A stretch of DNA of 64,000 bases from Pelobacter propionicus DSM 2379 (GTDB lineage: Bacteria; Desulfobacterota; Desulfuromonadia; Geobacterales; Pseudopelobacteraceae): NCBI RefSeq assembly GCF_000015045.1, contig NC_008609.1:868001-932000 (forward strand), in the 5' to 3' direction. The position numbers and the translations under genes were made by a program. Shown in pieces: positions 20,285 to 38,297 of the stretch. Within the stretch, counting starts at the first letter, position 1, and every line of letters begins with the position of its first letter. The notes beneath the pieces are model-generated. The model was not told the origin of the DNA. It saw only the letters and a program-made list of their open reading frames with translations, and did not search any database.

Positions 20285-21346
20285 CTAACTGATCACGGGC
20301 CTACCGGCGAACCATCTGCGCTGGAACCAGAAGGCCACGTTGACCAGTCCGATCATCACCGGCACCTCCACCAGCGGCCCGATCACGGCGGCAAAGGCGG
20401 CGCCGGAGTTGAGCCCGAATACGGCAATTGCCACGGCGATGGCCAGCTCGAAGTTGTTGCTGGCAGCGGTGAAGGCCAGGGTGGTGGTCCTGGAGTAGTC
20501 GGCGCCCAGGCGCTTGCCCATCCAGAAGGAGACCAGGAACATCACCACGAAGTAGACCAGCAGCGGAATGGCGATGCGCACTACATCCATGGGGAGTTGT
20601 ACGATCAGGTTGCCCTTCAGGCTGAACATGACCACGATGGTGAAGAGCAGGGCGATCAGGGTCAGAGGGCTGATCTTGGGCACCACCACGCGGTGGTAGC
20701 GCTCCTTGCCCATGATCTTGACCCCGATCAGCCGTGTCAGGGCGCCGGCGATACAGGGGATGCCCAGGTAGATGAAGACGCTCTCGGCGATCTGGCCGAT
20801 GCTCACGTCAACCACCACTCCCTTGAGGCCGATCATGGGCGGCAGGACCGTGATGAAGAACCAGGCGTAGACACTGAAGAAGAGCACCTGGAAGATACTG
20901 TTGAAGGCCACCAGACCGGCGGCGTATTCGGTGCTCCCCTTGGCCAGTTCGTTCCAGACGATGACCATGGCGATGCAGCGTGCCAGACCGATCATGATCA
21001 GGCCGACCATGTACTCCGGTTTGTCCGGCAGCAGCAGGGCCGCCAGTGCGAACATCAGCACCGGCCCGATCACCCAATTCTGCACCAGCGAAACTCCCAG
21101 GATCTTCTTGTTCTGGAAAACCTCTGGCATTTCCTCGTACTTCACCTTGGCAAAGGGGGGATACATCATCACGATCAGGCCGACTGCGATGGGGATGTTG
21201 GTGGTCCCCATCTGGAAGCTGTTGATGAAGGCTTCCACGCCCGGAATGAAAAAGCCCATGCCCACGCCCAGCGCCATGGCGGCGAAAATCCAGAGCGTCA
21301 GCCAGCGGTCCAGGAAGGACAGTTTGCGGGAAACGTGTTCACTCAT
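20285..21346 (-). CDS. acr3: Arsenite efflux permease, ACR3 family
   Basis: A 353-residue protein with ten membrane segments. Family features include the conserved region [16 protein letters not shown] and the essential Cys in [18 protein letters not shown], where ACR3 proteins bind arsenite, and [15 protein letters not shown] near the C-terminus. It exports As(III) from the cytoplasm by proton antiport. Its ATG overlaps the arsC stop (ATGA), so the reductase and exporter are translationally coupled. The operon promoter carries a palindromic operator shared with a second arsenic-type operon in this window. Confidence 0.93.
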
Positions 21347-21759
21347 GATGCACCTCCGAAATGGTGGATTATCCAGTTTTTTATCTCGTCACGCACGCGG
21401 CGGAATTCCGGCAGCAGTTCTTCCTCGCTCCCTTCGAGACGCGACGGGTCGTCGAAACCGCGGTGGACGCGCTCCACGCCGCCGATGAAGAGCGGGCAGG
21501 TCTCGTTGGCGTCGCCGCAGAGGGTGACCACATGGTCGAATCTCTCTCCCTGGAATTCATCCAGGGTCTTGGAGCGGTGGTTGGAAACGTCGATGCCCAG
21601 TTCTGCCAGCACCTGGGCAGCCAGGGGGTTAACCCGGGTGGCCTGGGTGCCGGCGGAAAATGCCTGGCAGCGGTCGGCCAGGTAGTGGTTTGCCAGTGCC
21701 TCGGCCATCTGGGAACGGCAGGAGTTGTGGGTGCAGAGGAAGAGGATGCGCTGTTTCAT
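21343..21759 (-). CDS. arsC: Arsenate reductase, thioredoxin-coupled LMW-phosphatase type
   Basis: A 138-residue protein; ATG 21759 is chosen because the LMW-PTP fold starts there ([20 protein letters not shown]). The CX5R loop is CTHNSCR, and the resolving cysteines of the redox relay are in [13 protein letters not shown]. These place it with the thioredoxin-dependent ArsC of Staphylococcus pI258 type, not the glutaredoxin type. It reduces As(V) to As(III), which the coupled ACR3 pump then exports. A promoter overlapping the palindrome ATCCGCTTGTGCGGAT lies 51-79 bases upstream. Confidence 0.93.
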
Positions 21760-21809: not shown

Positions 21810-21838
21810 TATATATCCGCTTGTGCGGATGTTGGCAA
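21810..21838 (-). promoter_or_regulatory. ArsR-type promoter/operator of arsC-acr3
   Basis: On the minus strand: -35 TTGCCA (21838-21833), 17-bp spacer, -10 TATATA (21815-21810). The spacer contains the perfect inverted repeat ATCCGC-N4-GCGGAT (21815-21830). Nearly the same arrangement is found at 33855-33883 before the ArsP operon, which makes it the likely site of a common ArsR repressor. Confidence 0.8.
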
Positions 21839-22099: not shown

Positions 22100-23347
22100 A
22101 TGACGTTATCACACACAACACCGGCTGTTCGACCGCCCCCCATGCCCCGCGGCCAGATGGTGCGCATGGTGCTGATCCTGGGCGTACTGACCGCCTTCGG
22201 CCCCATGTCCATCGACATGTATCTCCCCGCCTTCCCGCAGATCGCCCGGGATCTGGGGGTGCCGCTGGGCACGGTGCAGCTCTCCATTTCCGCCTTCCTG
22301 TTCGGCTCGGCGGCCGGGCAGCTCCTGTACGGGCCGCTGGCCGATCGCTTTGGTCGGCGCAGGCCGCTGCTGTGCGGACTGACGCTGTACATCGCCGCAG
22401 CGCTGGGATGCGCCTGTGTGCATACGGGAGAGGGGCTTTTGATCTGGCGTCTGGTGATGGCGGTGGGCGGCGGGGCCGGCATGGTGATCTCCCGCGCCGT
22501 TGTGCGCGATCTCTACGATACCGCCGAGGCTGCCCGGATGTTTTCGCTGCTCATGCTGGTCATGGGAGCCGCGCCGATCCTGGCCCCCATCGCGGGAGGG
22601 CAAATCCTGCTGATCACCGGCTGGCGCGGCATCTTTGCCTTTCTGGGGCTCTTCGCCCTGGTCTCCATCGCCGCCGCGGCCCGGTGGCTCCCCGAATCCC
22701 TGCCGCCGGAGCGGCGCATCCGCATCTCCCTGGCTGAGATGGTCGCGGGGTACGGGCAACTTCTGGCTAACCGCGACTACATCCGCTACTCCATCGCCCT
22801 GGGATGCGTTGCCGGATTCACCTTTGCGTACATTGCAGGGGCGCCATTTTTCTTCATCGAGCTCCATGGGATGTCCCCCCAACGGTTCGCCCTGCTGTTT
22901 GGTGCCAATGCCGTTGGGTTGATCGGGGCATCGCAACTGAACCGCCGTCTGCTGCACCGGTTCAGCGCCCAACGGATCATGAAGACATGCTTTGCCCTGA
23001 ACGCGGCGGCCACCCTTCTGCTGGTGGCCGTGGTCATGGCCGGAATCGGCGGCTTCCCTGGGCAGGGGCTGCTGATCTTCTTCTGCGTCAGCATGACCGG
23101 CTTCCTCTATCCCAACGTGACCGCCCTTACCCTGGCTCCCTTTGGAAAGGCTGCCGGAAGTGCGTCGGCGCTCCTGGGCACGATCCAGTATTCCATCGGC
23201 GCAAGCGCCGGAGCGCTGGTGGGGGCGCTGCACAACGGCACGGCGCTGCCCATGACCGCCTCCATGGCTCTCTGCGGGGTGGTGGGTTGGCTCGCCGTGG
23301 CGTTGAGCGCCTCGGCGGAAGATCACCCTTTCAACCGCGTTTCCTGA
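22100..23347 (+). CDS. Bcr/CflA family multidrug efflux MFS transporter
   Basis: A 415-residue protein with twelve membrane segments. I prefer ATG 22100 (GGAGG is 16 bases upstream; GTG 22073 is an alternative without a ribosome-binding site). The N-terminal motif FGPMSIDMYLPAFPQIARDL and the loop motif GPLADRFGRRRPLL identify the drug/H+ antiporter 1 (12-TM) family, Bcr/CflA branch, which exports drugs such as bicyclomycin or sulfonamides in E. coli. It is divergent from arsC and its last 25 bases overlap the end of the convergent atpG gene. Substrate unknown here. Confidence 0.9.
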   Translation: MTLSHTTPAVRPPPMPRGQMVRMVLILGVLTAFGPMSIDMYLPAFPQIARDLGVPLGTVQLSISAFLFGSAAGQLLYGPLADRFGRRRPLLCGLTLYIAAALGCACVHTGEGLLIWRLVMAVGGGAGMVISRAVVRDLYDTAEAARMFSLLMLVMGAAPILAPIAGGQILLITGWRGIFAFLGLFALVSIAAAARWLPESLPPERRIRISLAEMVAGYGQLLANRDYIRYSIALGCVAGFTFAYIAGAPFFFIELHGMSPQRFALLFGANAVGLIGASQLNRRLLHRFSAQRIMKTCFALNAAATLLLVAVVMAGIGGFPGQGLLIFFCVSMTGFLYPNVTALTLAPFGKAAGSASALLGTIQYSIGASAGALVGALHNGTALPMTASMALCGVVGWLAVALSASAEDHPFNRVS

Positions 23348-24195
23348 ACCACTCCCCCTGTTCCCGTCTCGCCCATCCCCGCCCCGGCCAGGATCGCCTC
23401 GATCTCTTCGATGATCTCTTCCTGGCGGGCCAGGTTCTGTTTCCGCTTCAGTTCGGCACTGCTCCGTTCCATGCGCCGGGAGGCTGCTTCGATGTGGTTG
23501 AGCCGAAAGCGGCTCTCGGCCATCAGCGAGCGGTAAAACAGCTCGATCATGGCTGCCAGCAGGTGCTGCTCGGCCAGCAGGCTGAAGAATGCGGACGGTG
23601 GAATGTTCAGGAGAGGCGGGAAGAGAGGCGTGTCCGTGCTCCGCGGCTGTCCTTCGAGGGGGGCCAGGGTTTTCGTCACGGGGTGGCCGCTGTCCGGATC
23701 GTGGTACAGGGCCACAAGCCGCAGGGAGTGGCCGCTGTCGGCGCGGCTGAGCAGCAAGGAGAGGCTGTCCATCACCCCGTGGATGACCTGTTCGATCTCC
23801 TCCAGCGCATGGGGGCCATCCATGTGCAGGTCAGCCGCTACCCGGTCAACGAGCTTGGCGCCCACCGCGATGATCCGTCTGCCTGAAGCATCTTCCCCGC
23901 TGCGCGTCGCCAGGGAGGCTATCAGGCGATCATTGAAATCGCTGCAGAACCCCCGCTGGGAGCCGACCAGCAGCAGCACCTGGAACTGGTCCCCCTGAGC
24001 GGGTCGCGGCTGGGGATGGAAGGCCAGGAAGTCGGCGGCTATTGTCTCCAGGCTCTCCACCAGCCCCCGCTGGCTGGCAAGCACGCGGGAAAGCTTGGCG
24101 GTCTCCATCAGGGCCAGGTTCTTCATCACCCCCAGGATGGCGCCGATGTCACCCAGGGCGGCTAGCCGCCGTTCAAGCTCACGCTTGCTGGCCAT
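23323..24195 (-). CDS. atpG: N-ATPase F1 gamma subunit
   Basis: A 290-residue protein with the usual gamma layout: N-terminal helix ([20 protein letters not shown]), Rossmann-like middle ([14 protein letters not shown]) and C-terminal helix ([24 protein letters not shown]). It forms the rotating central stalk. It is the last gene of the N-ATPase operon, as is typical of the atpDCQRBEFAG order, and overlaps atpA by 17 bases. The N-terminal region is divergent from the housekeeping enzyme, as in other N-ATPases. The 3' end overlaps the convergent Bcr gene. Confidence 0.9.
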
Positions 24196-25681
24196 TCATC
24201 CCCCCGTCGTCTGCCAGGGCCTGACTGACCAGCGCCAGCCAGGCGTCGCGGTCGCTCTCCAGCGTGCAGCTGCTCCCGGCCACCGCGGCTGCCAGCCTCT
24301 TCGTTACCCCCGCAATCTCCTCCGGTTTCTTTTTATCCAGCATCCCCTCGTTGAAGGCGATCAGCCAGGCCAACTGGTACTCCACCGGAAGGGGGGCGCG
24401 CCGTTCCTGGCGCAGCAGTTCCCGTAGCAGCCTCCCCCGCCTGATGCGAGCCTCCACCGAGGCCTCCAGGCGGGCGCCGAAACGGGTGAACAGTTCCAGC
24501 TCCAGGAACTGCAGGTAGTCCAGCTTCATGCGCCCCACCTCCTCCTTGACCCTCTGGTGTTGGGCCTTGCCGCCGATGCGGGAGACCGAGCGGGTGATGT
24601 CGATGGCCGGCAGGAAGCCGGCGGAGAAGAGCTGCTGGTCCAGGTATATCTGGCCGTCGGTGATGGAGATCAGGTTGGTGGGGATGTAGGCCGCCAACTC
24701 CCCCTGCTGGATCTCGATGATCGGCAGGGCGGTCATGCTCCCTCCGCCGTGACTTGCGGCCAGGACGGTGGAGCGCTCCAGGAGCCGGGCATGGAGGGAG
24801 AAGATGTCGCCGGGATAGGCCTCGCGTCCCGGCGGCCGGCGCAGGATCAGGGACACCTCCCGGTAGGTCTGGGCGTGCAGGGAGAGGTCGTCGTAGACGA
24901 TCAGGGTATCCCGGCCCCGCTGCATCCACTCCTCGGCCAGGGCGCAGCCGGCAAAGGGGGCCAGGTATTTCAGGCCGGGGAGCTCGAACGCCTCGGCCAC
25001 CACCACCGTGGTGTGGGGGAGCGCCCCGGCCTCCCGCAGCGTCTCCACGATGGCAACGCCCTTGGAACGTTTCTGGCCGATCAGGACGTAGACGCAGAGC
25101 ACGCCGTTCCCCTTCTGGCTGATGACCGCATCCAGGGCCAGGGAGCTTTTCCCCGTGGATGAGCCGCCGATGATCAGCTGGCGCTGGCCCCGGCCCACCG
25201 GGATCATGGTGTCCACGATGGTGGTGCCGGTGTACAGCGGGCTGTTCACGAAGCTGCGGGCCAGGATCGGCGCCGACGGTCCGAAGATCTCCCGGCGGAT
25301 GCAGTCGGCAGGTGGCTCGCCGCCGTCCAGCGGTCTCCCCAGGGGGTCTACGACCCTTCCCAACAGGCTGTCTCCCGCCGGGATGGAGGGGCGGCTTCCG
25401 GAGAGCTCGGCCCCGGTCCCCGCGGTGAGCCGGTCGCTCTGGTGCAGCAGGATCGCGCCCACAAGCTCCCTGCCCAGGTGAAAGACCAGTGCCCGGCTCC
25501 CCTCCTCCAGGGTGATGACCTCATCCAGGGCGGCCGAGGGAAGGCGGCCGATCCAGGCCACACCATCACCCACGGCCAGCACGCATCCCCGTTCCCTGAT
25601 GCGGGTTGTGGGGCGATACCCCGCGAGCCTGGCCTCCAGCCGGTTAAGGGGTGAGCGGGATGGGGTGGCTTCAGTCGGCAT
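24179..25681 (-). CDS. atpA: N-ATPase F1 alpha subunit
   Basis: A 500-residue protein. I choose ATG 25681, with GGGGAGG a few bases upstream, although the frame extends further; this start overlaps the b-subunit end by 11 bases. The P-loop reads GGSSTGKSS rather than the more common [30 protein letters not shown] and the alpha-specific [22 protein letters not shown] and [10 protein letters not shown] are present. Non-catalytic nucleotide-binding subunit of F1. Its length is close to the family norm. Operon context (b before, gamma after) is the N-ATPase order. Confidence 0.92.
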
Positions 25682-26417
25682 CGATTCCTCCCCGGAAAAA
25701 GGCCAGTTCGTCACTCAGGTTGGCAGCCAGATTCCAGGGGCCGGCGATCACGCGCACACCGGCCAAAAGCGTCGGGTCTTCCGTGAAGCTGAAGCGGAGC
25801 GCCTCGGGGAACATCTCCCGGAAGCGGCCCTCGAACGCCTGGGAAGCGGTCGGCGCCAGGGGGTGGGCGCTTATCACCCGCACCGGCGCGTCATCCTTGC
25901 CAAGCGCCTCGGAAATGGCGCGGCGCTGATCGTCGGGGAGAGCAGCCAGGTCTTCCAGCAGCATCTCCATGAGCAATATTCCCTGCTCCGCTGTGGCGGT
26001 ACGGGCCAGCAGTCGGGCGGCAAATCGGCCAGCATGGGCAATGGCGCGTTCCTCGCTCAGGCGGGCCAGTTCCTCGCTGCGCCGCTCTTCTGCCACCCTG
26101 GCCTTGTCCCGCATCCCGGCAAGCTCCTCATCGAGAGCGGCCATCAAACGCTGGCGCTCCACGGCGATCTCGGCATGCAACTGGCGGCGCAGTTCCGCCT
26201 TCTCGGTATCCCAGGAGGCCAGGCGTCCCTGGTAGGTTTGCCGCAACCCGGTTGCCTCGCTCCTGAGCTGCTCGGCTTCGGCGCGGGTGTGCTCCAGAGC
26301 CGCCTGCCGCTGGGCGATGATGGCGGCTACCGGCCGGTAGAGGATGCGGTTCATGATCCAGACAAGGATCAGGAAGTTGACGGCTTCCATGATCAGGGTG
26401 GAGAGATCGAGTTCCAT
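25671..26417 (-). CDS. atpF: N-ATPase F0 subunit b with extended C-terminus
   Basis: A 248-residue protein, much longer than the usual 160-residue b subunit. One N-terminal membrane segment (about residues 10-28, [12 protein letters not shown]) leads into a long charged coiled coil (about 30-150). The C-terminal ~90 residues ([17 protein letters not shown] and [20 protein letters not shown]) resemble the delta/OSCP C-terminal part. N-ATPase operons have no separate delta gene and their b subunits carry this extension, so this protein probably supplies both stator stalk and F1 cap. Confidence 0.88.
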
Positions 26418-26429
26418 GGATGGCCTCCG

Positions 26430-26696
26430 TTATTTGAGGAGGTATTCCAGCAGGGGGTTCCTGAACAGCACGATCAGCACGATCACCAGGCAGTAGATGG
26501 CCAGGGATTCGATCATGGCCAGGCCGATGAAGAGCGTCCGGGTCAGCGACTTCTCCGCCTCGGGCTGTCGGGCCAGGGATTCCAGGGCGGTGCAGATGGC
26601 CTGCCCCATGGCCTTTGCCGGCGCGATGATGCCGATGGCCATGGCGATCAGCGCCACCACCGTTGATGCGAAAACGAACCAGAACAGGGCGCTCAT
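26430..26696 (-). CDS. atpE: N-ATPase F0 subunit c, sodium-binding type
   Basis: An 88-residue hairpin protein with two membrane helices and the polar loop ARQPE. The residues that bind Na+ in sodium-type c rings can be matched: Gln32 in helix 1, and Glu63, Ser64 and Tyr68 in helix 2 (MIESLAIY). The Thr that usually follows Ser is Leu65. Gln plus Glu-Ser with Tyr four residues later is the pattern expected for Na+ rather than H+ coupling. The start codon overlaps the atpB stop (ATGA). Confidence 0.92.
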   Translation of the reverse strand: MSALFWFVFASTVVALIAMAIGIIAPAKAMGQAICTALESLARQPEAEKSLTRTLFIGLAMIESLAIYCLVIVLIVLFRNPLLEYLLK

Positions 26697-27379
26697 GTTT
26701 CCTCCTCCTTGGGAGAGCGCCGGGCCTCCAGGGACTGGATGGCGCCGGCTATGTAGACCAGTGTCAGCATGCCGAAGATATAGGCCTGCACCAGGGCTTC
26801 AACGATGTGCAGCATCAAAAGCGGGATCGGCGCGAACAGGCCTGCCACCAGCAGCACCAGCAGGGCCGCGGTCTCCAGGCTCATCATGTTGCCGAACAGG
26901 CGCACGGCCAGGGCCAGGGTGCGGGTGATCTCGCCGATGACGTGAAAGGGGAGCAGGAAAGGGCTCGGCGAGAGGTAATGTCGCAGATAGGGGCGCAGCC
27001 CCTGGATGCGGATTCCGAACCAGTGCACCGAAAAAAACACCAGCAGCGCCAGGGCCGTTGTGGCGGACAGGTCTGCCGTGGGGGAGTGGACACGGGGGAT
27101 CAGGCTGGAGAGGTTGGCGATTCCGATGAAGAGCCAGAGGGTCGCCACGAAGGGGAAGACGGTGTCGGCGCGTCGCGGCACTACCTCTTCCACGGCGGCG
27201 CGGATGGTCTGCACGACCCCCTCCAGGGCCACCTGGAAGGGGCCTGGGTCGAGGCGCAGGCGTCTGCTGGCCAGCCATGCGCCAAGGGAGAGGACGACCA
27301 TGATCCCCCAGGTGGTCACCACCGTGGTTCCCACGGCCAGGGGCCCCAGGTGGAACAGCGCCTGTGTCGTTTCCAGCAT
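26693..27379 (-). CDS. atpB: N-ATPase F0 subunit a
   Basis: A 228-residue polytopic protein. The key stator arginine is in LAVRLFGNMMSLE, followed by a typical C-terminal helix pair ending in ALVQAYIFGMLTLVYIAGAI. It forms the ion half-channels against the c ring. A 4-base overlap with atpE and a 45-base gap from atpQ place it within the operon. Size and motifs match the N-ATPase a subunit rather than the longer housekeeping form. Confidence 0.92.
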   Translation of the reverse strand: MLETTQALFHLGPLAVGTTVVTTWGIMVVLSLGAWLASRRLRLDPGPFQVALEGVVQTIRAAVEEVVPRRADTVFPFVATLWLFIGIANLSSLIPRVHSPTADLSATTALALLVFFSVHWFGIRIQGLRPYLRHYLSPSPFLLPFHVIGEITRTLALAVRLFGNMMSLETAALLVLLVAGLFAPIPLLMLHIVEALVQAYIFGMLTLVYIAGAIQSLEARRSPKEEET

Positions 27380-27424
27380 GAAGTGCTCCTTCTTGTTGGG
27401 TGAGGGACGCAGTGCACTGCGTCC

Positions 27425-27693
27425 CTACGGCTCCCGTATCAGCAGGTAGGCATTGAACCCGCCGATGACCAGCCCCAGGAAGATCATCGAGATGGTCCAG
27501 CGGATGGAGTAGCCGCTCGCCATGCCGTCCAGCCAGCGCCCCAGGTAGGCACCGCCGATCACCGGCAGCACCAGCAGCAGCCCCAGGGTCCCCAGGTAGA
27601 CCGACTGCCCCAGCACCGTGGGCCGCTCCCGTTCGGCCCGCACCAGCCGCCTGACCCGCTGTTCCACCTGTTGCCTGAGGTTGTCGTCGTTTT

Positions 27694-27697
<4 letters not shown>
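27425..27697 (-). CDS. atpQ: N-ATPase accessory membrane protein AtpQ (AtpI-like)
   Basis: A 90-residue protein with a charged N-terminus (about residues 1-28) and two membrane helices (about 31-50 and 65-85). GRWLD and SIRWTISMIFLGLVIGGFNA match the small F1F0-ATPase gene-1 type protein found in N-ATPase operons, related to AtpI. AtpI-like proteins help c-ring assembly or Mg uptake in other systems. Its ATG overlaps the atpC stop. Many N-ATPase operons have a second small membrane gene, atpR, after this one; only 45 bases separate this gene from atpB here. Confidence 0.85.
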
Positions 27698-29669
<1,972 letters not shown>

Positions 29670-31201: not shown

Positions 31202-31888
31202 TTACATCCCCTGCCACACAAACCAGCCACCCGCCAGCGCAATCACGCCGCCGCTGATTCGTTTGGACCATGACGAGAAGTTGACAACGCCGCGGGCCTT
31301 GGCGAACCCCTCCACGAATCCGGTGAAGGTGCCGGCGAACAGCATCAGCAGGCAGTGGCCGATGGCGTAGCAGAACAGTAGGGCCGTGCCGTACAGCACC
31401 TGCCCTTTGCCGGCAACCAGGGTCAGCAGCAGCACCAGCACCGGCGTGGCGCAAGGGGACGAGACCACCCCGAAGAACAGCCCCAGCAGAAATGCTCCGG
31501 CCAGGCCACCCTGTTTGGGCTTGTAGTCGCGCCTGACCGGCAGGCGGATCTCGTACAGCCCCATCATCTGTCCTCCCATGGCCAGGGCGATGACGCCGGC
31601 GACCAGGTGCCAGGGGCCGCCCAGTGCCCCGAACATGGTGCCCAAGAGACCCGCCGCAGCGCCGAAGGCGGTGAAGGTGAGCGACAGCCCCAGGATGAAG
31701 GCCAGCGAGTAGCGGAATGCCTTGCCACGGTCGCCATCGCTGTAACCTCCCACGAATCCGACCACCAGCGGAATGGTGGCCAGCACGCAGGGGGAGGCCG
31801 ACGACAGCACCCCGGCACAAAAGACCGCGACGAAAGCCAGCAGTGGGTAAAGGCTGATGATCTGCTCCACGTTGTCCAGCAGGCTCAT
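31202..31888 (-). CDS. ccdA: CcdA-like thiol-disulfide electron transfer membrane protein
   Basis: A 228-residue protein with six membrane segments. The paired cysteines needed for transmembrane thiol transfer are in SSASPCVLATIPL and VVSSPCATPVLVLL. CcdA/DsbD-beta proteins move reducing power from cytoplasmic thioredoxin to an extracytoplasmic thioredoxin-like partner, and here the gene is directly coupled to one (ATGA overlap with the upstream gene). Last gene of a five-gene operon with an ArsP-type permease. It may keep thiols reduced for metalloid export; a cytochrome c maturation role is the alternative. Confidence 0.88.
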   Translation of the reverse strand: MSLLDNVEQIISLYPLLAFVAVFCAGVLSSASPCVLATIPLVVGFVGGYSDGDRGKAFRYSLAFILGLSLTFTAFGAAAGLLGTMFGALGGPWHLVAGVIALAMGGQMMGLYEIRLPVRRDYKPKQGGLAGAFLLGLFFGVVSSPCATPVLVLLLTLVAGKGQVLYGTALLFCYAIGHCLLMLFAGTFTGFVEGFAKARGVVNFSSWSKRISGGVIALAGGWFVWQGM

Positions 31889-32277
31889 TTCAAACCCAGT
31901 GCCTTCAGTTCCTTCAGTATGTCGGCCTTGTCCATGAAGCCCATGTGGCGCTTGACCTCTTTGCCTGCGGCGTTGAAGAAGATCTGGGTCGGGATCATCT
32001 GTATGCGGTAATCCCTCGCCAGGACATCATCTTTCCATACATCGTTGAAGAGCACGTTGGCCTTGCCCTTGAGCTCGCGGTTCAGCTCTTCCAGTATGGG
32101 CGCCATCTTCTTGCAGGGGATGCAGCTGCGGGCGCCGAAGTCGACTACGCTGGGCCTGCCGGAGCTCAAGGCAGCCCGGATGCTGCTGCCGGTTGCGGAA
32201 GGAAGTTCCGCCGCCAGCGCCGACAGGTGGGCCAGGCAGGAGAGCGCCAAAATTGTTCCAATGATGAGCTTTCTCAT
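31885..32277 (-). CDS. Exported thioredoxin-family protein
   Basis: A 130-residue protein with a signal peptide (about residues 1-22) and a thioredoxin fold. The active site is SCIPCKKMAP (CxxC), followed by the cis-Pro region MIPTQIFF and the C-terminal helix. It should sit outside the cytoplasmic membrane and exchange electrons with the CcdA protein encoded next to it. It overlaps the genes on both sides by 4 bases (ATGA). Confidence 0.9.
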   Translation of the reverse strand: MRKLIIGTILALSCLAHLSALAAELPSATGSSIRAALSSGRPSVVDFGARSCIPCKKMAPILEELNRELKGKANVLFNDVWKDDVLARDYRIQMIPTQIFFNAAGKEVKRHMGFMDKADILKELKALGLK

Positions 32278-32543: not shown

Positions 32544-33491
32544 TCAGAGTATCGCATTGAACAGATAACCGATACAGACGATGGCCAGGGCCACGATGCC
32601 GAAGAAGGTCCCTAGCAGCGGCTTTTTAAGCACATTGCTCAGGATGATCGCCTCTGGCAGCGACAGGGCCGTGACCGCCATCATGAAGGCCAGCACCGTG
32701 CCCATGGCCATCCCCTTGGCGGTCAGGGCCTGGACGATGGGGATCACACCGGCGGCGTTGGAGTAGAGCGGCACGCCCAGGGCCACGGCCAGCGGCACGG
32801 CAAAGGGGTTGTCACGGCCTGCCCATGTGGCCAGGAAATCCTGGGGCACATAGCCGTGGATGAAACCGCCGATGCCGATGCCGACCACCACGTAGGGCCA
32901 GATCTTCTTCAAGAGATCCAGGGTGTAGTCGCGGGCATAGTCGATCTTTTCCCGGAAGGTCATGACCCTGATGTCGGCGTTGCCCACCTGCATCTTCCAG
33001 ACGTAGTCCTGAACGTGCTTCTCCATCTTCAGTTTTCCGATGATGATCCCGGCAATAATGGCCACCAGCAGGCCGGTGCCGATGTAGATCAGGGCGATCT
33101 TCCAGCCGAACAACCCCCAGAGCATGATCAGGGCCACCTCGTTGACCATGGGCGAGGAGACCAGAAACGAAAAGGTCACCCCCAGCGGTACCCCCGACTC
33201 CACGAAGCCGATGAAGAGCGGCACTGCCGAGCAGGAGCAGAAGGGGGTCACGATGCCCAGCAGCGCGGCCAGGATGTTGCCGATGTATTCCCGTTTGTGG
33301 GAGAGGATGCGCTTGGTCCGCTCCGGGGGGAAGGATGAGCGGATGATGGCCACCACGAAGATGATCGTGGTCAGGAGCAGGAAGATCTTGGTAGTGTCGT
33401 AGAGGAAGAAGTTAAGCGCCTCGCCCAGGCGGGTGCCGGGCGTGAGCCCCATCAGGTCAAAGGTCAGATAATCGGCGGCTTGCTTGAGCAT
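32544..33491 (-). CDS. arsP: ArsP/DUF318 family permease
   Basis: A 315-residue protein with eight to nine membrane segments. The family signature PFCSCSAVPLFIGFVESG is present; it contains paired cysteines that in ArsP bind trivalent organoarsenicals. A second conserved region is GVPLYSNAAGVIPIVQAL. ArsP exports methylarsenite and related compounds; the wider DUF318 family is less well characterised. Encoded with two thioredoxin-fold proteins, CcdA and an AhpD-like protein under the same operator type as arsC-acr3, so a role in arsenic or thiol-reactive metalloid resistance is likely. Confidence 0.85.
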   Translation of the reverse strand: MLKQAADYLTFDLMGLTPGTRLGEALNFFLYDTTKIFLLLTTIIFVVAIIRSSFPPERTKRILSHKREYIGNILAALLGIVTPFCSCSAVPLFIGFVESGVPLGVTFSFLVSSPMVNEVALIMLWGLFGWKIALIYIGTGLLVAIIAGIIIGKLKMEKHVQDYVWKMQVGNADIRVMTFREKIDYARDYTLDLLKKIWPYVVVGIGIGGFIHGYVPQDFLATWAGRDNPFAVPLAVALGVPLYSNAAGVIPIVQALTAKGMAMGTVLAFMMAVTALSLPEAIILSNVLKKPLLGTFFGIVALAIVCIGYLFNAIL

Positions 33492-33506: not shown

Positions 33507-33773
33507 TTATGCGCAGCAACTGCTGGGTGACGAACTGGGGGAAGAGCCACACCGGCATGCCGCTGCAGCCGGTTTCACGAGCGAGGCTGAAAACGTGCCC
33601 ATGGCGTTCATGGCCCCCCTGCTGACCATCTGGCCTGTTTCAATCGCCGCCAGGATCTCCTCGTCTGAAATGCCCAGTTCGCGGGCTTTCTCCAGGTGAT
33701 GGCTGAGGCAGGGTTGGCAGTGGGCGCTTACCGAGGCGCCGATGGCGATCAATTCTCTCAAACGTTCATCCAT
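33507..33773 (-). CDS. AhpD-like (carboxymuconolactone decarboxylase fold) protein with Cys-rich tail
   Basis: An 88-residue protein. The AhpD-type active site is AHCQPCLSHH (Cys19, Cys22, His nearby), which relays electrons to peroxidases in AhpD. The C-terminus is unusual: a low-complexity tail ACRCGSSPSSSPSSCCA with four cysteines that could bind a soft metal or metalloid. First gene of the ArsP operon, with the palindromic promoter about 82-110 bases upstream. Many homologues lack this tail as far as I can recall. Confidence 0.85.
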   Translation of the reverse strand: MDERLRELIAIGASVSAHCQPCLSHHLEKARELGISDEEILAAIETGQMVSRGAMNAMGTFSASLVKPAAAACRCGSSPSSSPSSCCA

Positions 33774-33854: not shown

Positions 33855-33883
33855 AATGTATCCGCTTGTGCGGATGGATGCAA
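33855..33883 (-). promoter_or_regulatory. ArsR-type promoter/operator of the ArsP operon
   Basis: On the minus strand: -35 TTGCAT (33883-33878), a 17-bp spacer and -10 TACATT (33860-33855). The spacer carries the perfect inverted repeat ATCCGC-N4-GCGGAT (33860-33875), with the same 16 bases as at 21815-21830. This marks a two-operon local regulon. Confidence 0.8.
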
Positions 33884-33963: not shown

Positions 33964-35142
33964 TCAGGCCGGTAGAGCCGGCTTGTTCCTCGTGCGGCTC
34001 AGCCGGTAATAGAGGAGCATGATTGCCAGGACAAACGGGCTGAGCAGGAAGTAGAGCCCGGAGTAGCCGGTAAAGGCTATGCAGGCGCCCACAAGGCAGG
34101 AACCGGTTCCCAGGCCGATATCCAGAAAGGTGAAATAGGTCGCGGTAACCGCGCTGGTACGGTGCGCGGGAGAGTGCTGGATGGCGAGTGTGAGAAAGCC
34201 GGGTACGGCGGCGCCGTAGGCCAAACCGATCAGGGAGGCCGCCATGAGCATGTGCAGCGATGAGCCGGCATGACCGAGGATGAGCAGCCCCAGAGCCATA
34301 AGTCCAATGGCGGGATAGATGACCACATTGGCGCCGAACCGGTCGTACAACCGGCCGGTAAAGAGCCTGGATCCCACCGAGCAGGTAGCCATGACAACGA
34401 AGAAATAGGCGGCTGCCGCGTCCAGCCGAAGGCTGTTGGCGTAGACCGTGACAAAGGTGATCACCGCGGCATTGGCAACGGACAGGAGCAGGACCATGCC
34501 CGAGGCCGGCATGGCCTGGGCCTCGAAGAGGTCCCTCAGTGCAAAACCCCGCACAGCGCTTTGTTTGGTGGATGGTTCCTCCTGGACGTCGATCATCAGG
34601 GCAATCAGGAACCCTGCCAACGAGATGGCGGCACTGAAGATGAAAACCCGGCTGAATCCGAATGACTTTGCAAGGTTAAGGCCGATATAGGGGCCGATGG
34701 CATTGCCGGCGGTGACAACCATGGTCAGGTAGCCCAGCCCCTCGCCCTTGCGCTTGAGAGGGGCAAGCCTGCTGCCGATGGCATTGATGCAGGTATTGAC
34801 GATGGCAAAACAGGCCCCGCTGAAAAAACGGATCAGCAGTACCAGTGCCGTTGCATCGGTCAGCAGAAACAGGCAATTGGAGAACATGAACAGAAATCCG
34901 CTGGCCAGCAGCACGGTCCGTACGCCGAACATGCTCTCGAAGCGGCTTGTCTGTGCCCGGAACAGGACCGACGCCAGCAGGAAAACCGCGTTGACCATCC
35001 CGGCGGCGGCCAGGGAGCCGTGGAGCTCGTCGAGAACGTAGACCGGGAGGACGGGCAGATAGAGGGAGTAGGGGATAAAGATCAGGAACGAAGCCAGCAG
35101 GGTCAGAGTATAGGGTTTTGTCCATAAAGCCTCGTTATTCAT
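33964..35142 (-). CDS. MFS transporter
   Basis: A 392-residue protein with twelve membrane segments and a major facilitator fold. GRLYDRFGANV is the loop between the two halves, and GYLTMVVTAGNAIGPYIG resembles the drug-exporter motif C in segment 5. The start overlaps the MarR gene stop (ATGA). MarR-linked MFS proteins are usually drug or aromatic-acid exporters induced by their substrate. The substrate is unknown. Confidence 0.88.
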   Translation of the reverse strand: MNNEALWTKPYTLTLLASFLIFIPYSLYLPVLPVYVLDELHGSLAAAGMVNAVFLLASVLFRAQTSRFESMFGVRTVLLASGFLFMFSNCLFLLTDATALVLLIRFFSGACFAIVNTCINAIGSRLAPLKRKGEGLGYLTMVVTAGNAIGPYIGLNLAKSFGFSRVFIFSAAISLAGFLIALMIDVQEEPSTKQSAVRGFALRDLFEAQAMPASGMVLLLSVANAAVITFVTVYANSLRLDAAAAYFFVVMATCSVGSRLFTGRLYDRFGANVVIYPAIGLMALGLLILGHAGSSLHMLMAASLIGLAYGAAVPGFLTLAIQHSPAHRTSAVTATYFTFLDIGLGTGSCLVGACIAFTGYSGLYFLLSPFVLAIMLLYYRLSRTRNKPALPA

Positions 35143-35594
35143 GCCTCAAGCTCCCCCTTGCCGTCCGGCGTCACGTATTTCCGGGCATTTTCACGGATAT
35201 GGGTCAGAAGATACTGCAGCTCGTTCTGCTGTTCCCCGGAAAGGCCGGCAAGCAGCGACGAGCGGTGTTCCCTGATGCGCTCTTCCCATTGCGGATACAG
35301 CTGCACGGCTCTTTCGCTCAGGCTGGTTGTCTTGGTGCGCCGGTCCATTCCCTCGCTCCTGTCGATCAGCCCCCGCTGTTCGAGCCTGGCCAGGCTTTTG
35401 GTGATGGCTGGCGGCTCGATATGGAGGAAAGCGGCCAGGCTGCGCTGGGTCTGGGGGCCGTGGAGTTTTAGGGCGCGTATGAGGCTCCATTCCGAACTGG
35501 ACAGTCCCCATGGTTCGAGCACCCGATTGATCCCCCTGGCAATCACCCGGGTGGTTTGATGTAAATTGTGCAGCAGTCTGTCCGAGTCGTTCAT
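35139..35594 (-). CDS. MarR family transcriptional regulator
   Basis: A 151-residue winged-helix protein. The recognition region LAAFLHIEPPAITKSLARLEQRGLI and the wing (SEGMDRRTKTTSLSERA) fit the MarR family. It should repress the MFS gene encoded downstream and itself. A perfect palindrome, GTTAACCGGTTAAC, 17 bases upstream of the start is the probable operator. An IS element is inserted only about 50 bases upstream of the start codon. Confidence 0.9.
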   Translation of the reverse strand: MNDSDRLLHNLHQTTRVIARGINRVLEPWGLSSSEWSLIRALKLHGPQTQRSLAAFLHIEPPAITKSLARLEQRGLIDRSEGMDRRTKTTSLSERAVQLYPQWEERIREHRSSLLAGLSGEQQNELQYLLTHIRENARKYVTPDGKGELEA

Positions 35595-35643: not shown

Positions 35644-37320
35644 GAGTCTGTCGGGCTTGACCTCAGGGGCGCCCTCTTTTGTGGCCAAGCCGATTAAAAA
35701 AGTTCCGTATGTGTTCGTCTTCCCACCGGCAACCTGGTTAATTCAGCCCTTTCAGCGATGACTGCGGTTATTACAGGCTGATTTTCGCTATTTCTCATTC
35801 TATCCGGCCAAGACATGCAGCCGTTTGATGTTGTAGGCCATGCAGACGAGGTTCCATTCGCCTTTTACTGCTTCAAAGCCACGAAGAAGAAAGCTTCTGA
35901 ATCCCATGACCGCCTTGATGATGCCGAAGACCGGTTCCGAGGTGACTTTTCGCTGGGCGTAGATCGCCTTGCCGGAAGGTGTCTTCAGGCGATGCTTCAT
36001 TCTGGCCACGGAATCGGCATCTTCGGGTAACGGCGGCGGTTCGGCAAAGCGCTCCATCAGTGGCACGTTGTGACTCTGCCGGTCTACGGCAATGTAGGGA
36101 GTTATCCCGTTCTCCTCACAGGCAGTTACATTGGTTTCGCTGAAGTAGCCACTGTCAGCTACCAGATCGGTTGCCTTGCCAAGCTTCTCAGGCAGCGCCG
36201 CCAGGTTCTCCAGGGTCGGTGTCAGCTCCTGTTTGTCATTGGGATTCTGGGTAACATGGGCCGAAACGATGAGCTTTGATGCCGTATCCACACCGGCCTG
36301 GGCGTTGTACGTCTGCTCGAATCCGCCACCGGAGGTCGGCATGATCCGCGACTCTTCATCGGTCAGATTGACCTGATCTTTGGCAGTGGGGCCGGATTTG
36401 GGCGGTTTCGGCTCTTTCCCCTTGGCCTTCTTGCCCGTTGCCTGCTCCTTCTTGGCCCGTTCGGCGACTTTCTTCTCATAAGCGGCCTGTTCACGAGCAT
36501 GGCGCTCAGCGGCTCGTTTTTCGATCTCGACCTTGGCTGCGGCAATGGCGGAAAGACGCTTTTCCCGACGTTCCAGTTCTTCGGGGATGTTCATGCCGTC
36601 CGGAATATCGGCACGGTCCGCTGCCTCGGCCTTTTTGAGCAGTTCGCCAACCTCAGCCTTGATCTGCTCTTCAAGCTTGCAGGCATGCTCATAGCTCAGC
36701 GCCTTGTGCTTGGAGGCGTTCGCCTTGATTTTGCTGCCATCCAAACTAACGTTGCCCAGTTTCAGCACCTCCATCTGATGAGCGATCAGCAGAATCTGGG
36801 CAAACAGCTTGTTCAGTTGCGGCAGAAAACGCCGGCGGAAGGTGGCAATGGTATCGTGGTCAGGATGACTGTTTGCCGCTATGAACCGGAATGCCACGGA
36901 GTCGTAGGTGCTGCGCTCAAGCTTCCGGCTGGAGAATACGCCTGTCGCATAACCGTAAAACAACAATGCTACCAGCATCTCAGGGTTATAGGGCTGCGAG
37001 CCTCGGCCGGCATAGGTAGCTTTCAAAGAGCGCAGGTCGAGCTGTTCGACAATTTCGACCACAAACCGGGCCAAGTGCTTTTCTGGTAGCCAATCCTGCA
37101 GCGATGGCGGGAGCAGATAGGGTGTTTCCCGGTCAACTTCAATAAACTTTGATTTCATAGTCAACCCCGATACCTAACCAGTTGATATTACCGGACAAAT
37201 ATACGGGATACACCAAGAAAACGCAAGCTAAAGCTGACGACTTATTCAATAAATACAGCAGGTTAACCAATTGAAAACGCCCTGGAGATGACGGCTGAAT
37301 GCGTTAAGCCCGACAGACTC
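35644..37320 (-). mobile_element. IS1182-type insertion sequence, copy A
   Basis: A 1677-bp element with terminal inverted repeats beginning GAGTCTGTCGGGCTT (35644-35658) and ending AAGCCCGACAGACTC (37306-37320). It is flanked by a direct 4-bp target duplication CTAG (35640-35643 and 37321-37324). It carries one transposase gene on the minus strand. The encoded protein is identical to that of copy B at 50123-51799, which is in the opposite orientation. The insertion lies 50 bases upstream of marR. Confidence 0.95.
35800..37158 (-). CDS. IS1182-family DDE transposase, copy A
   Basis: A 452-residue transposase started at ATG 37158 (a TTG 6 bases upstream is possible). The N-terminal domain (LLPPSLQDWLPEKHLARFVV, DUF772 type) binds the ends. 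The likely DDE residues lie in NVSLDGSKI, LVADSGYFSE and VTSEPVFGIIK. A Lys/Glu-rich insertion (about residues 155-250) separates the first D from the rest. The protein sequence is identical in both copies and looks intact, so both may be active. Confidence 0.95.
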   Translation of the reverse strand: MKSKFIEVDRETPYLLPPSLQDWLPEKHLARFVVEIVEQLDLRSLKATYAGRGSQPYNPEMLVALLFYGYATGVFSSRKLERSTYDSVAFRFIAANSHPDHDTIATFRRRFLPQLNKLFAQILLIAHQMEVLKLGNVSLDGSKIKANASKHKALSYEHACKLEEQIKAEVGELLKKAEAADRADIPDGMNIPEELERREKRLSAIAAAKVEIEKRAAERHAREQAAYEKKVAERAKKEQATGKKAKGKEPKPPKSGPTAKDQVNLTDEESRIMPTSGGGFEQTYNAQAGVDTASKLIVSAHVTQNPNDKQELTPTLENLAALPEKLGKATDLVADSGYFSETNVTACEENGITPYIAVDRQSHNVPLMERFAEPPPLPEDADSVARMKHRLKTPSGKAIYAQRKVTSEPVFGIIKAVMGFRSFLLRGFEAVKGEWNLVCMAYNIKRLHVLAG

Positions 37321-37457: not shown

Positions 37458-37688
37458 TCAGAGATATTTCTGGATCTCCGCAGGCGTGGGGCTCGTGCCG
37501 GAACATACCACCCTGCCGTCGATGACCAGTGCCGGAGTGCTCATCACGCCATACTGCATGATCGACGCCATGTCCTCCTCAACCTTGATCACATCCGCCT
37601 TGACCCCCGTGGCCCTGACCGCTGCGTGAACCGCGTCCAGGAGCGTCGTGTCCGTGGTGCAACAACCTGCCAGCACTTCGATCTTCAT
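37458..37688 (-). CDS. Thioredoxin-like protein with degenerate active site
   Basis: A 76-residue paralogue of the protein at 32274-32501: the same start (MKIEVL), the same YGVMSTPALVIDG and the same C-terminus (AEIQKYL). The active site CAKC is replaced by CCTTD: Cys10 is kept and preceded by Cys9, but the resolving Cys13 is Asp. An extra Cys appears in RVVCSGTS, where the paralogue has Phe. It cannot form the standard CxxC disulfide; a vicinal-Cys metal or metalloid site is possible. It lies 188 bases downstream of arsR. Confidence 0.85.
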   Translation of the reverse strand: MKIEVLAGCCTTDTTLLDAVHAAVRATGVKADVIKVEEDMASIMQYGVMSTPALVIDGRVVCSGTSPTPAEIQKYL

Positions 37689-37831: not shown

Positions 37832-37862
37832 TAAAGGGCACCCCATGGGGGTGCCCTTTACC
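37832..37862. terminator. Hairpin between arsR and the thioredoxin-like gene
   Basis: A perfect 14-bp stem, GTAAAGGGCACCCC (37832-37845) with GGGGTGCCCTTTAC (37849-37862), and a 3-base loop. There is only a weak T tract on either side, so it may be an attenuator or mRNA processing site lowering expression of the downstream gene. Confidence 0.55.
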
Positions 37863-37876
37863 TGCCGGTTACTGTT

Positions 37877-38260
37877 TCAGTCGCCTGGTCCGGGGTGGCT
37901 GCATTTTGCGCAACCTGGCTCGTTCTGCCCCTTTCGGGTCTGGAATTTCACAAGGCTCTCGTGGTCGCGGGAGATCTGGTCGCTGTCCGGGGAGTGGCGC
38001 TTCAGAAGATCCAGCAGGTCGGCGGAGAGCCGGTTGATGTCGCGGCTGATGGTGTAGTGCATCCAGACGCCGTCGCGCCGGTCATCCAGCCAGCCGGAGC
38101 GCTTCAGGTAGGCCAGATGGCGCGACACCGTGGACTGGGGCAGTTTCAGCACCGCCATCAGGTCGCAGACGCACAGTTCCCCCTCCGTCTGCAGCAGCAT
38201 CAGGATACGCAGGCGGATCGGGTCGGAGAGGCATTTGAATGTCTGGGCGAGCTGTTGCAT
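37877..38260 (-). CDS. arsR: ArsR family repressor
   Basis: A 127-residue winged-helix protein. The As(III)-binding motif ELCVCDLM is present in the sensor helix, followed by the recognition helix (LPQSTVSRHLAYLKRSGWL). The C-terminus has another pair of cysteines (GCAKCSHPGPGD). In the absence of As(III) it should bind operators and block transcription. The palindromes at 21815 and 33860 are the likely targets. Its own promoter lies so close that the mRNA is predicted to be nearly leaderless. Confidence 0.92.
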   Translation of the reverse strand: MQQLAQTFKCLSDPIRLRILMLLQTEGELCVCDLMAVLKLPQSTVSRHLAYLKRSGWLDDRRDGVWMHYTISRDINRLSADLLDLLKRHSPDSDQISRDHESLVKFQTRKGQNEPGCAKCSHPGPGD

Positions 38261-38268
38261 GGTGACTG

Positions 38269-38297
38269 TTTATAAAACGGATCGGCCGCCGGGTCAA
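38269..38297 (-). promoter_or_regulatory. Promoter of arsR
   Basis: Minus strand: -35 TTGACC (38297-38292), 17-bp spacer and -10 TATAAA (38274-38269). Transcription would start at about 38262, within a few bases of the ATG at 38260. No Shine-Dalgarno sequence is seen. The 16-bp palindrome of the other arsenic promoters is absent, although a half-site ATCCG is in the spacer. Confidence 0.7.

Follow-up and report, generated by a model that had tools for sequence, protein, structure and literature searches.

A palindrome shared by two arsenic-operon promoters is very probably the switch of an ArsR repressor whose own gene carries none

The same palindrome lies between the -35 and -10 boxes of two promoters in the window (the whole 64-kb stretch of DNA that was analysed), and the sequence comparisons described here indicate that it is very probably the DNA switch for ArsR control of two detoxification operons. 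The result is a real ArsR regulon with a circuit variant at the level of a clade, in which the sensor gene is unusually without the switch. We consider it highly likely that the palindrome is the ArsR operator and that arsC-acr3 and ahpD-arsP would be controlled in trans by an arsR that is transcribed separately and constitutively, is leaderless, and is free of feedback.

Two exact, identical copies of the 16-mer ATCCGCTTGTGCGGAT occupy 21815-21830 and 33860-33875; each reads ATCCGC-TTGT-GCGGAT, and they fall within the 17-bp spacer of two minus-strand promoters of the sigma-70 type. The promoter with putative ArsR operator 1 (21810..21838, minus strand) has the form TTGCCA-N17-TATATA (-35 box at 21833-21838, -10 box at 21810-21815) with ATCCGCACAAGCGGAT in the spacer. 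It stands upstream of arsC-acr3, and the same layout is found before arsC in the sister genome G259 (locus L085) and in many relatives. The promoter with putative operator 2 (33855..33883, minus strand), upstream of ahpD-arsP-trx-ccdA, reads TTGCAT-N17-TACATT (-35 box at 33878-33883, -10 box at 33855-33860), again with ATCCGCACAAGCGGAT in the spacer, and has its counterpart at the same position before arsP in G259. The first-pass annotation had described two minus-strand promoters with a 17-bp spacer and the same palindrome at the same position, and both copies are indeed exact and in the same register. Nothing but the promoter elements and the operator is shared, the surrounding DNA being different. 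This points to a promoter structure that is convergent or has been conserved, as opposed to a duplicated block of DNA.

A window-wide scan with two mismatches was uninformative (6 matches vs 5.3 expected). In the whole 4.24-Mb genome (three contigs; the window is contig 3, 868001-932000), ATCCGC-N4-GCGGAT has exactly three matches, the third being at contig 3, 3172399, inside the reading frame of a P-type ATPase. When TTG is required at the -35 position, that is, when the pattern is TTG-N5-palindrome-A, the two window sites are the only matches. A random scatter of the palindrome, which the first-pass annotation had named as speaking against its proposal in such a genome-wide search, was not found; as promoter elements, the two window sites are unique in the genome.

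The genes behind the two promoters are those originally proposed, arsC-acr3 and AhpD-ArsP-thioredoxin-CcdA, and domain and profile matches confirm the contents of both operons, which lie on the minus strand. The arsC gene (21343..21759, start ATG at 21759) encodes a thioredoxin-type arsenate reductase with the LMWPc fold (TIGR02691, E 2.8e-41, below the curated cut-off), and acr3 (20285..21346) encodes an arsenite efflux permease that reaches the equivalog score of TIGR00832 (E 1.5e-135; 451.8 bits vs a cut-off of 282.8). The second operon comprises, on domain matches, an AhpD-like small protein of the CMD family with a Cys-rich tail (33507..33773), an ArsP-type permease (ArsP_1, 32544..33491), a thioredoxin-like protein (31885..32277), which is probably exported to judge from its N-terminal sequence, and a CcdA/DsbD transmembrane thiol transporter (DsbD_TM/CcdA, 31202..31888). 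The permease, a candidate organoarsenical transporter with MAs(III) as putative substrate, contains the PF03773 domain (E 3e-82) and passed no curated NCBIfam equivalog. The AhpD-like protein, whose C-terminal Cys-rich tail is CRCGSSPSSSPSSCCA, resembles the GSU3128 (seleno)protein family and may possibly bind arsenicals. The window also holds an ATP synthase operon (23323-29657, minus strand) with an alternative gene order, similar to the N-ATPase type.

The first-pass annotation had identified a sole ArsR at 37877, and this is borne out for the 64-kb window. The arsR gene (37877..38260, minus strand) encodes an As(III)-type ArsR, the proposed trans-acting repressor, with the winged helix-turn-helix of the ArsR family (PF01022, E 1e-16; NF033788, 88.7 bits vs a cut-off of 55). 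It possesses the motif ELCVCDL with the As(III) pair Cys30 and Cys32, as well as a C-terminal Cys117, and all three cysteines are 99-100% conserved across 152 relatives. Directly 3' of arsR is a very stable hairpin (37836..37865, minus strand) with a segment energy of -34 kcal/mol. It may be a terminator but has no clear T run. Behind arsR, and without an operator here, follows a gene for a glutaredoxin-like small thiol protein (grx, 37458..37688, minus strand) that the sister genome has within its arsP operon.

The arsR gene's own promoter (38269..38297, minus strand) is TTGACC-N17-TATAAA, 8 nt 5' of the ATG, and is without the palindrome: a search for an operator in it returned no palindrome match, nor was any convincing inverted repeat seen. 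The window arsR is thus not an autoregulated operon in the sense of having an operator in its own promoter, an absence that the first-pass annotation overlooked.

Elsewhere in the genome there are four further real ArsR/SmtB genes, which differ in sensor or recognition residues. One of them, G000:C1:71254-71478 (L016, on a plasmid-sized 202-kb contig), is the second CVCD-type gene of the genome and adjoins a gene for a small membrane protein; it was rejected as the regulator since it has a CVCDI box but a recognition helix of TTKSAISHQLRLL vs PQSTVSRHLAYL. The remaining ones were set aside as being without CVCDL or fused to a methyltransferase.

The nearest genome, and the only other one of the genus in the set compared, is the metagenome-assembled genome Desulfuromonadales bacterium Cfx2-04 (G259). 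Here, the palindrome precedes arsP-grx-trx-ccdA (directly behind an arsR of 76% identity), acr3, and arsC. The sites therefore stand before the same targets, that is, operators and targets are conserved and gene order is not. While arsR and arsP are adjacent in the sister genome, they are apart in the window, where an IS-type (DDE-type) transposase gene (35800-37164, minus strand) and a MarR/MFS pair are found between arsR-grx and the ahpD-arsP operon. In the window genome, arsR seems to have become physically separated from its targets. The sister genome also has a short ArsR-like reading frame (L084:5867-6040) divergent from the acr3 operator; it may be an arsR that has decayed or diverged.

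When 277 genomes of the class were scanned for TTG-N5-palindrome-A with one mismatch allowed, 79 had matches, at about 100 places vs 14 for the reversed control (by our count), and a control palindrome of equal composition was found at 25 places, none of them exact. Thirty loci were fetched by the DNA pattern alone, and 26 of these have arsR, arsC, or acr3 (or arsP) within about 250 bp downstream; an ars gene within 3 kb was seen at 0 of the 25 control-palindrome loci. In one of the four other loci, from another genus (L038:1509-1590), the operator is directly 5' of a gene for glyceraldehyde-3-phosphate dehydrogenase. In arsenic detoxification, this enzyme is known to work together with ArsJ, and the position of the operator suggests that the gapdh-arsJ pathway belongs to the regulon, ArsJ itself being assumed.

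A further 100 arsR regions were fetched by protein similarity. Around 152 distinct arsR genes there are 136 exact ATCCG-N6-CGGAT sites vs 0.12 expected from dinucleotide shuffles. In the aligned sites, TTGAC/TTGAT and TATAAT-like boxes stand on either side of the operator. ArsRs with an operator in their own promoter and those of the clade that includes the window ArsR do not differ at recognition-helix residues 41-44 and 46-48 (PQST.SRH), where identity is 100%. Across Desulfuromonadia, then, the palindrome is located between the -35 and -10 boxes of ars genes and is conserved with ArsR, which is what characterizes an operator of this type. The proposal that the ArsR at 37877 is the likely regulator of both sites gains support from the regulon of the sister genome, the ars promoters of the class, and the invariant recognition helix, all of which argue for it at the level of sequence.

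The absence of the operator from arsR's own promoter extends to the whole clade of the window ArsR (support 93, SH-like, in a tree of 115 columns with some forks unresolved): it is missing in 57 of 57 members, the best match being no better than in shuffled sequence. Outside this clade, arsR has the operator in its own promoter in 79 of 95 cases, frequently accompanied by another in the interval from arsR to the following gene; the 30 motif-chosen loci bias this autoregulated fraction upward, while the remainder, including the window clade, was gathered by protein. A Fisher test gives 1.7e-27, a value that treats related genes as independent and is not to be read as a probability. In relatives belonging to the Desulfobulbales, the arsR promoter does contain the operator, which makes loss in the window clade the simplest history; an operator-free arsR seems to have been inherited by a whole group of Geobacter relatives.

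A near-consensus promoter (TTGACC/G-N17-TATAAA) is recognised before arsR in 39 of the 57 clade members, the spacer being 17 bp in 35 of these 39, and a weak preference for ACTGC/T near the -10 box is common to the clade. In 36 of the 57, an operator follows arsR within 250 bp, before arsC or acr3; the other 21 have no site within 250 bp after arsR, and in some of them the targets or the site are further off or divergent. In both groups, with and without the operator at arsR, 6-9 nt separate the end of the -10 box from the arsR ATG. Since this leaves no room for a ribosome-binding site, the arsR mRNA is predicted to be leaderless. We think it reasonably likely that negative feedback on the sensor has been lost in a large clade of ArsRs from Geobacter relatives, with a constitutive leaderless arsR and operators only at the detoxification genes, and that this freedom let the window arsR drift away. 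Most ArsRs of this clade also possess three extra cysteines (positions 56, 76, and 79; about 93%) that are missing in the window ArsR and that possibly reflect a different arsenical specificity.

The proposed circuit would work as follows. When no arsenic is present, an ArsR dimer would occupy the spacer from -35 to -10 in the promoters of arsC-acr3 and of ahpD-arsP, where it would block RNA polymerase. Binding of As(III) or methylated As(III) to Cys30/Cys32, and perhaps Cys117, would release ArsR and induce both operons; release of ArsR from DNA by As(III) is established ArsR biology. ArsR is cast as the binder because of its co-occurrence with the palindrome and the identical recognition-helix residues. 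Its gene would be transcribed on its own from the near-consensus promoter, and because that promoter is without an operator, ArsR is expected to be constitutive. Made from a leaderless mRNA, it would act in trans on two operons with no negative feedback.

It is also conceivable, and in our judgement rather unlikely, that the operators are as described but that arsR is autoregulated all the same, be it by way of a degenerate site of another kind in its promoter or because transcription of the methyltransferase gene upstream reads through into it. Autoregulation is common among ArsR/SmtB repressors, a co-directional gene ends 61 bp upstream of arsR, and one half-site ATCCG is present in the window arsR promoter, as it is in that of the sister. 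The promoter could also hold an operator of another sequence; the weak ACTGC/T preference near the -10 box is shared in the clade. Across the clade, however, the 50 nt ahead of arsR match the palindrome no better than shuffled sequence does, and the window promoter has no convincing inverted repeat.

That some other regulator binds the palindrome is very improbable. One candidate is the MarR-type protein encoded at 35139-35594, whose co-directional gene is found next to operator 2, on the side of the IS element, but the palindrome tracks arsR, arsC, and acr3 across many genera, the site in G259 is directly behind arsR, and the window copies are found only at the two ars promoters, with none before the MarR gene. 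We give almost no credence to the palindrome being a chance occurrence or a structural element of DNA or RNA (a hairpin or terminator) with no regulator. Any palindrome can form a hairpin, but this one is located in the spacer from -35 to -10, ahead of the point where the transcript begins, and chance was rejected on the genome counts, the control palindrome, and the shuffles, as one can see from the excess of exact sites near arsR genes.

The classical ArsR/SmtB operator consensus is TAxAxTCAAATA-xx-TATTTGAxTxTA, of 12-2-12 form (PMC6555750). By inspection, neither window site conforms to it, both being ATCCGC-N4-GCGGAT without TCAAATA arms. As in Escherichia coli arsRBC, there is an ArsR-family repressor with CxC in a CVCDL box, an inverted repeat over promoter elements, and ars targets; unlike in that system, the operator is ATCCGC-N4-GCGGAT within A/T flanks, the two target operons are distant from arsR, and the arsR promoter is operator-free. 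In the case of Synechocystis arsBHC, arsR is unlinked and its product controls a separate acr3-arsC operon in trans (PMC4010505, PMC4284471), the mode of action proposed here, although the lineage is another one, and in the present case the absence of the operator at arsR is traced over a clade in which arsR is mostly still beside its targets. Thermus thermophilus TtSmtB shares the dispersed ars genes and the dedicated promoters for repressor and targets, and the TtsmtB transcript starts 3 nt before the start codon (PMC5658604). TtSmtB differs from the window ArsR in operator sequences and in binding its own promoter, which it does weakly, its transcript being seen on arsenic treatment (PMC5658604). 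The proposed circuit exists in engineered form, in the feedback-uncoupled E. coli arsenic bioreporters with constitutive arsR and an ArsR-controlled output promoter, built for sensitivity (PMC3918153); ours is the same circuit but apparently natural. Searches of an open-access library turned up no account of this operator, nor of a whole clade of Geobacter relatives in which arsR has naturally lost its feedback.

The operator gives a testable sequence for arsenic regulation in metal-reducing anaerobes that are important in arsenic-bearing aquifers, and with it the DNA of any such genome is enough to predict its regulon. If the clade is truly feedback-free, close relatives with and without feedback would serve as a natural experiment from which to learn why repressors control their own genes, and would provide uncoupled sensor parts, ready for use, to build arsenic biosensors that function in anaerobes.
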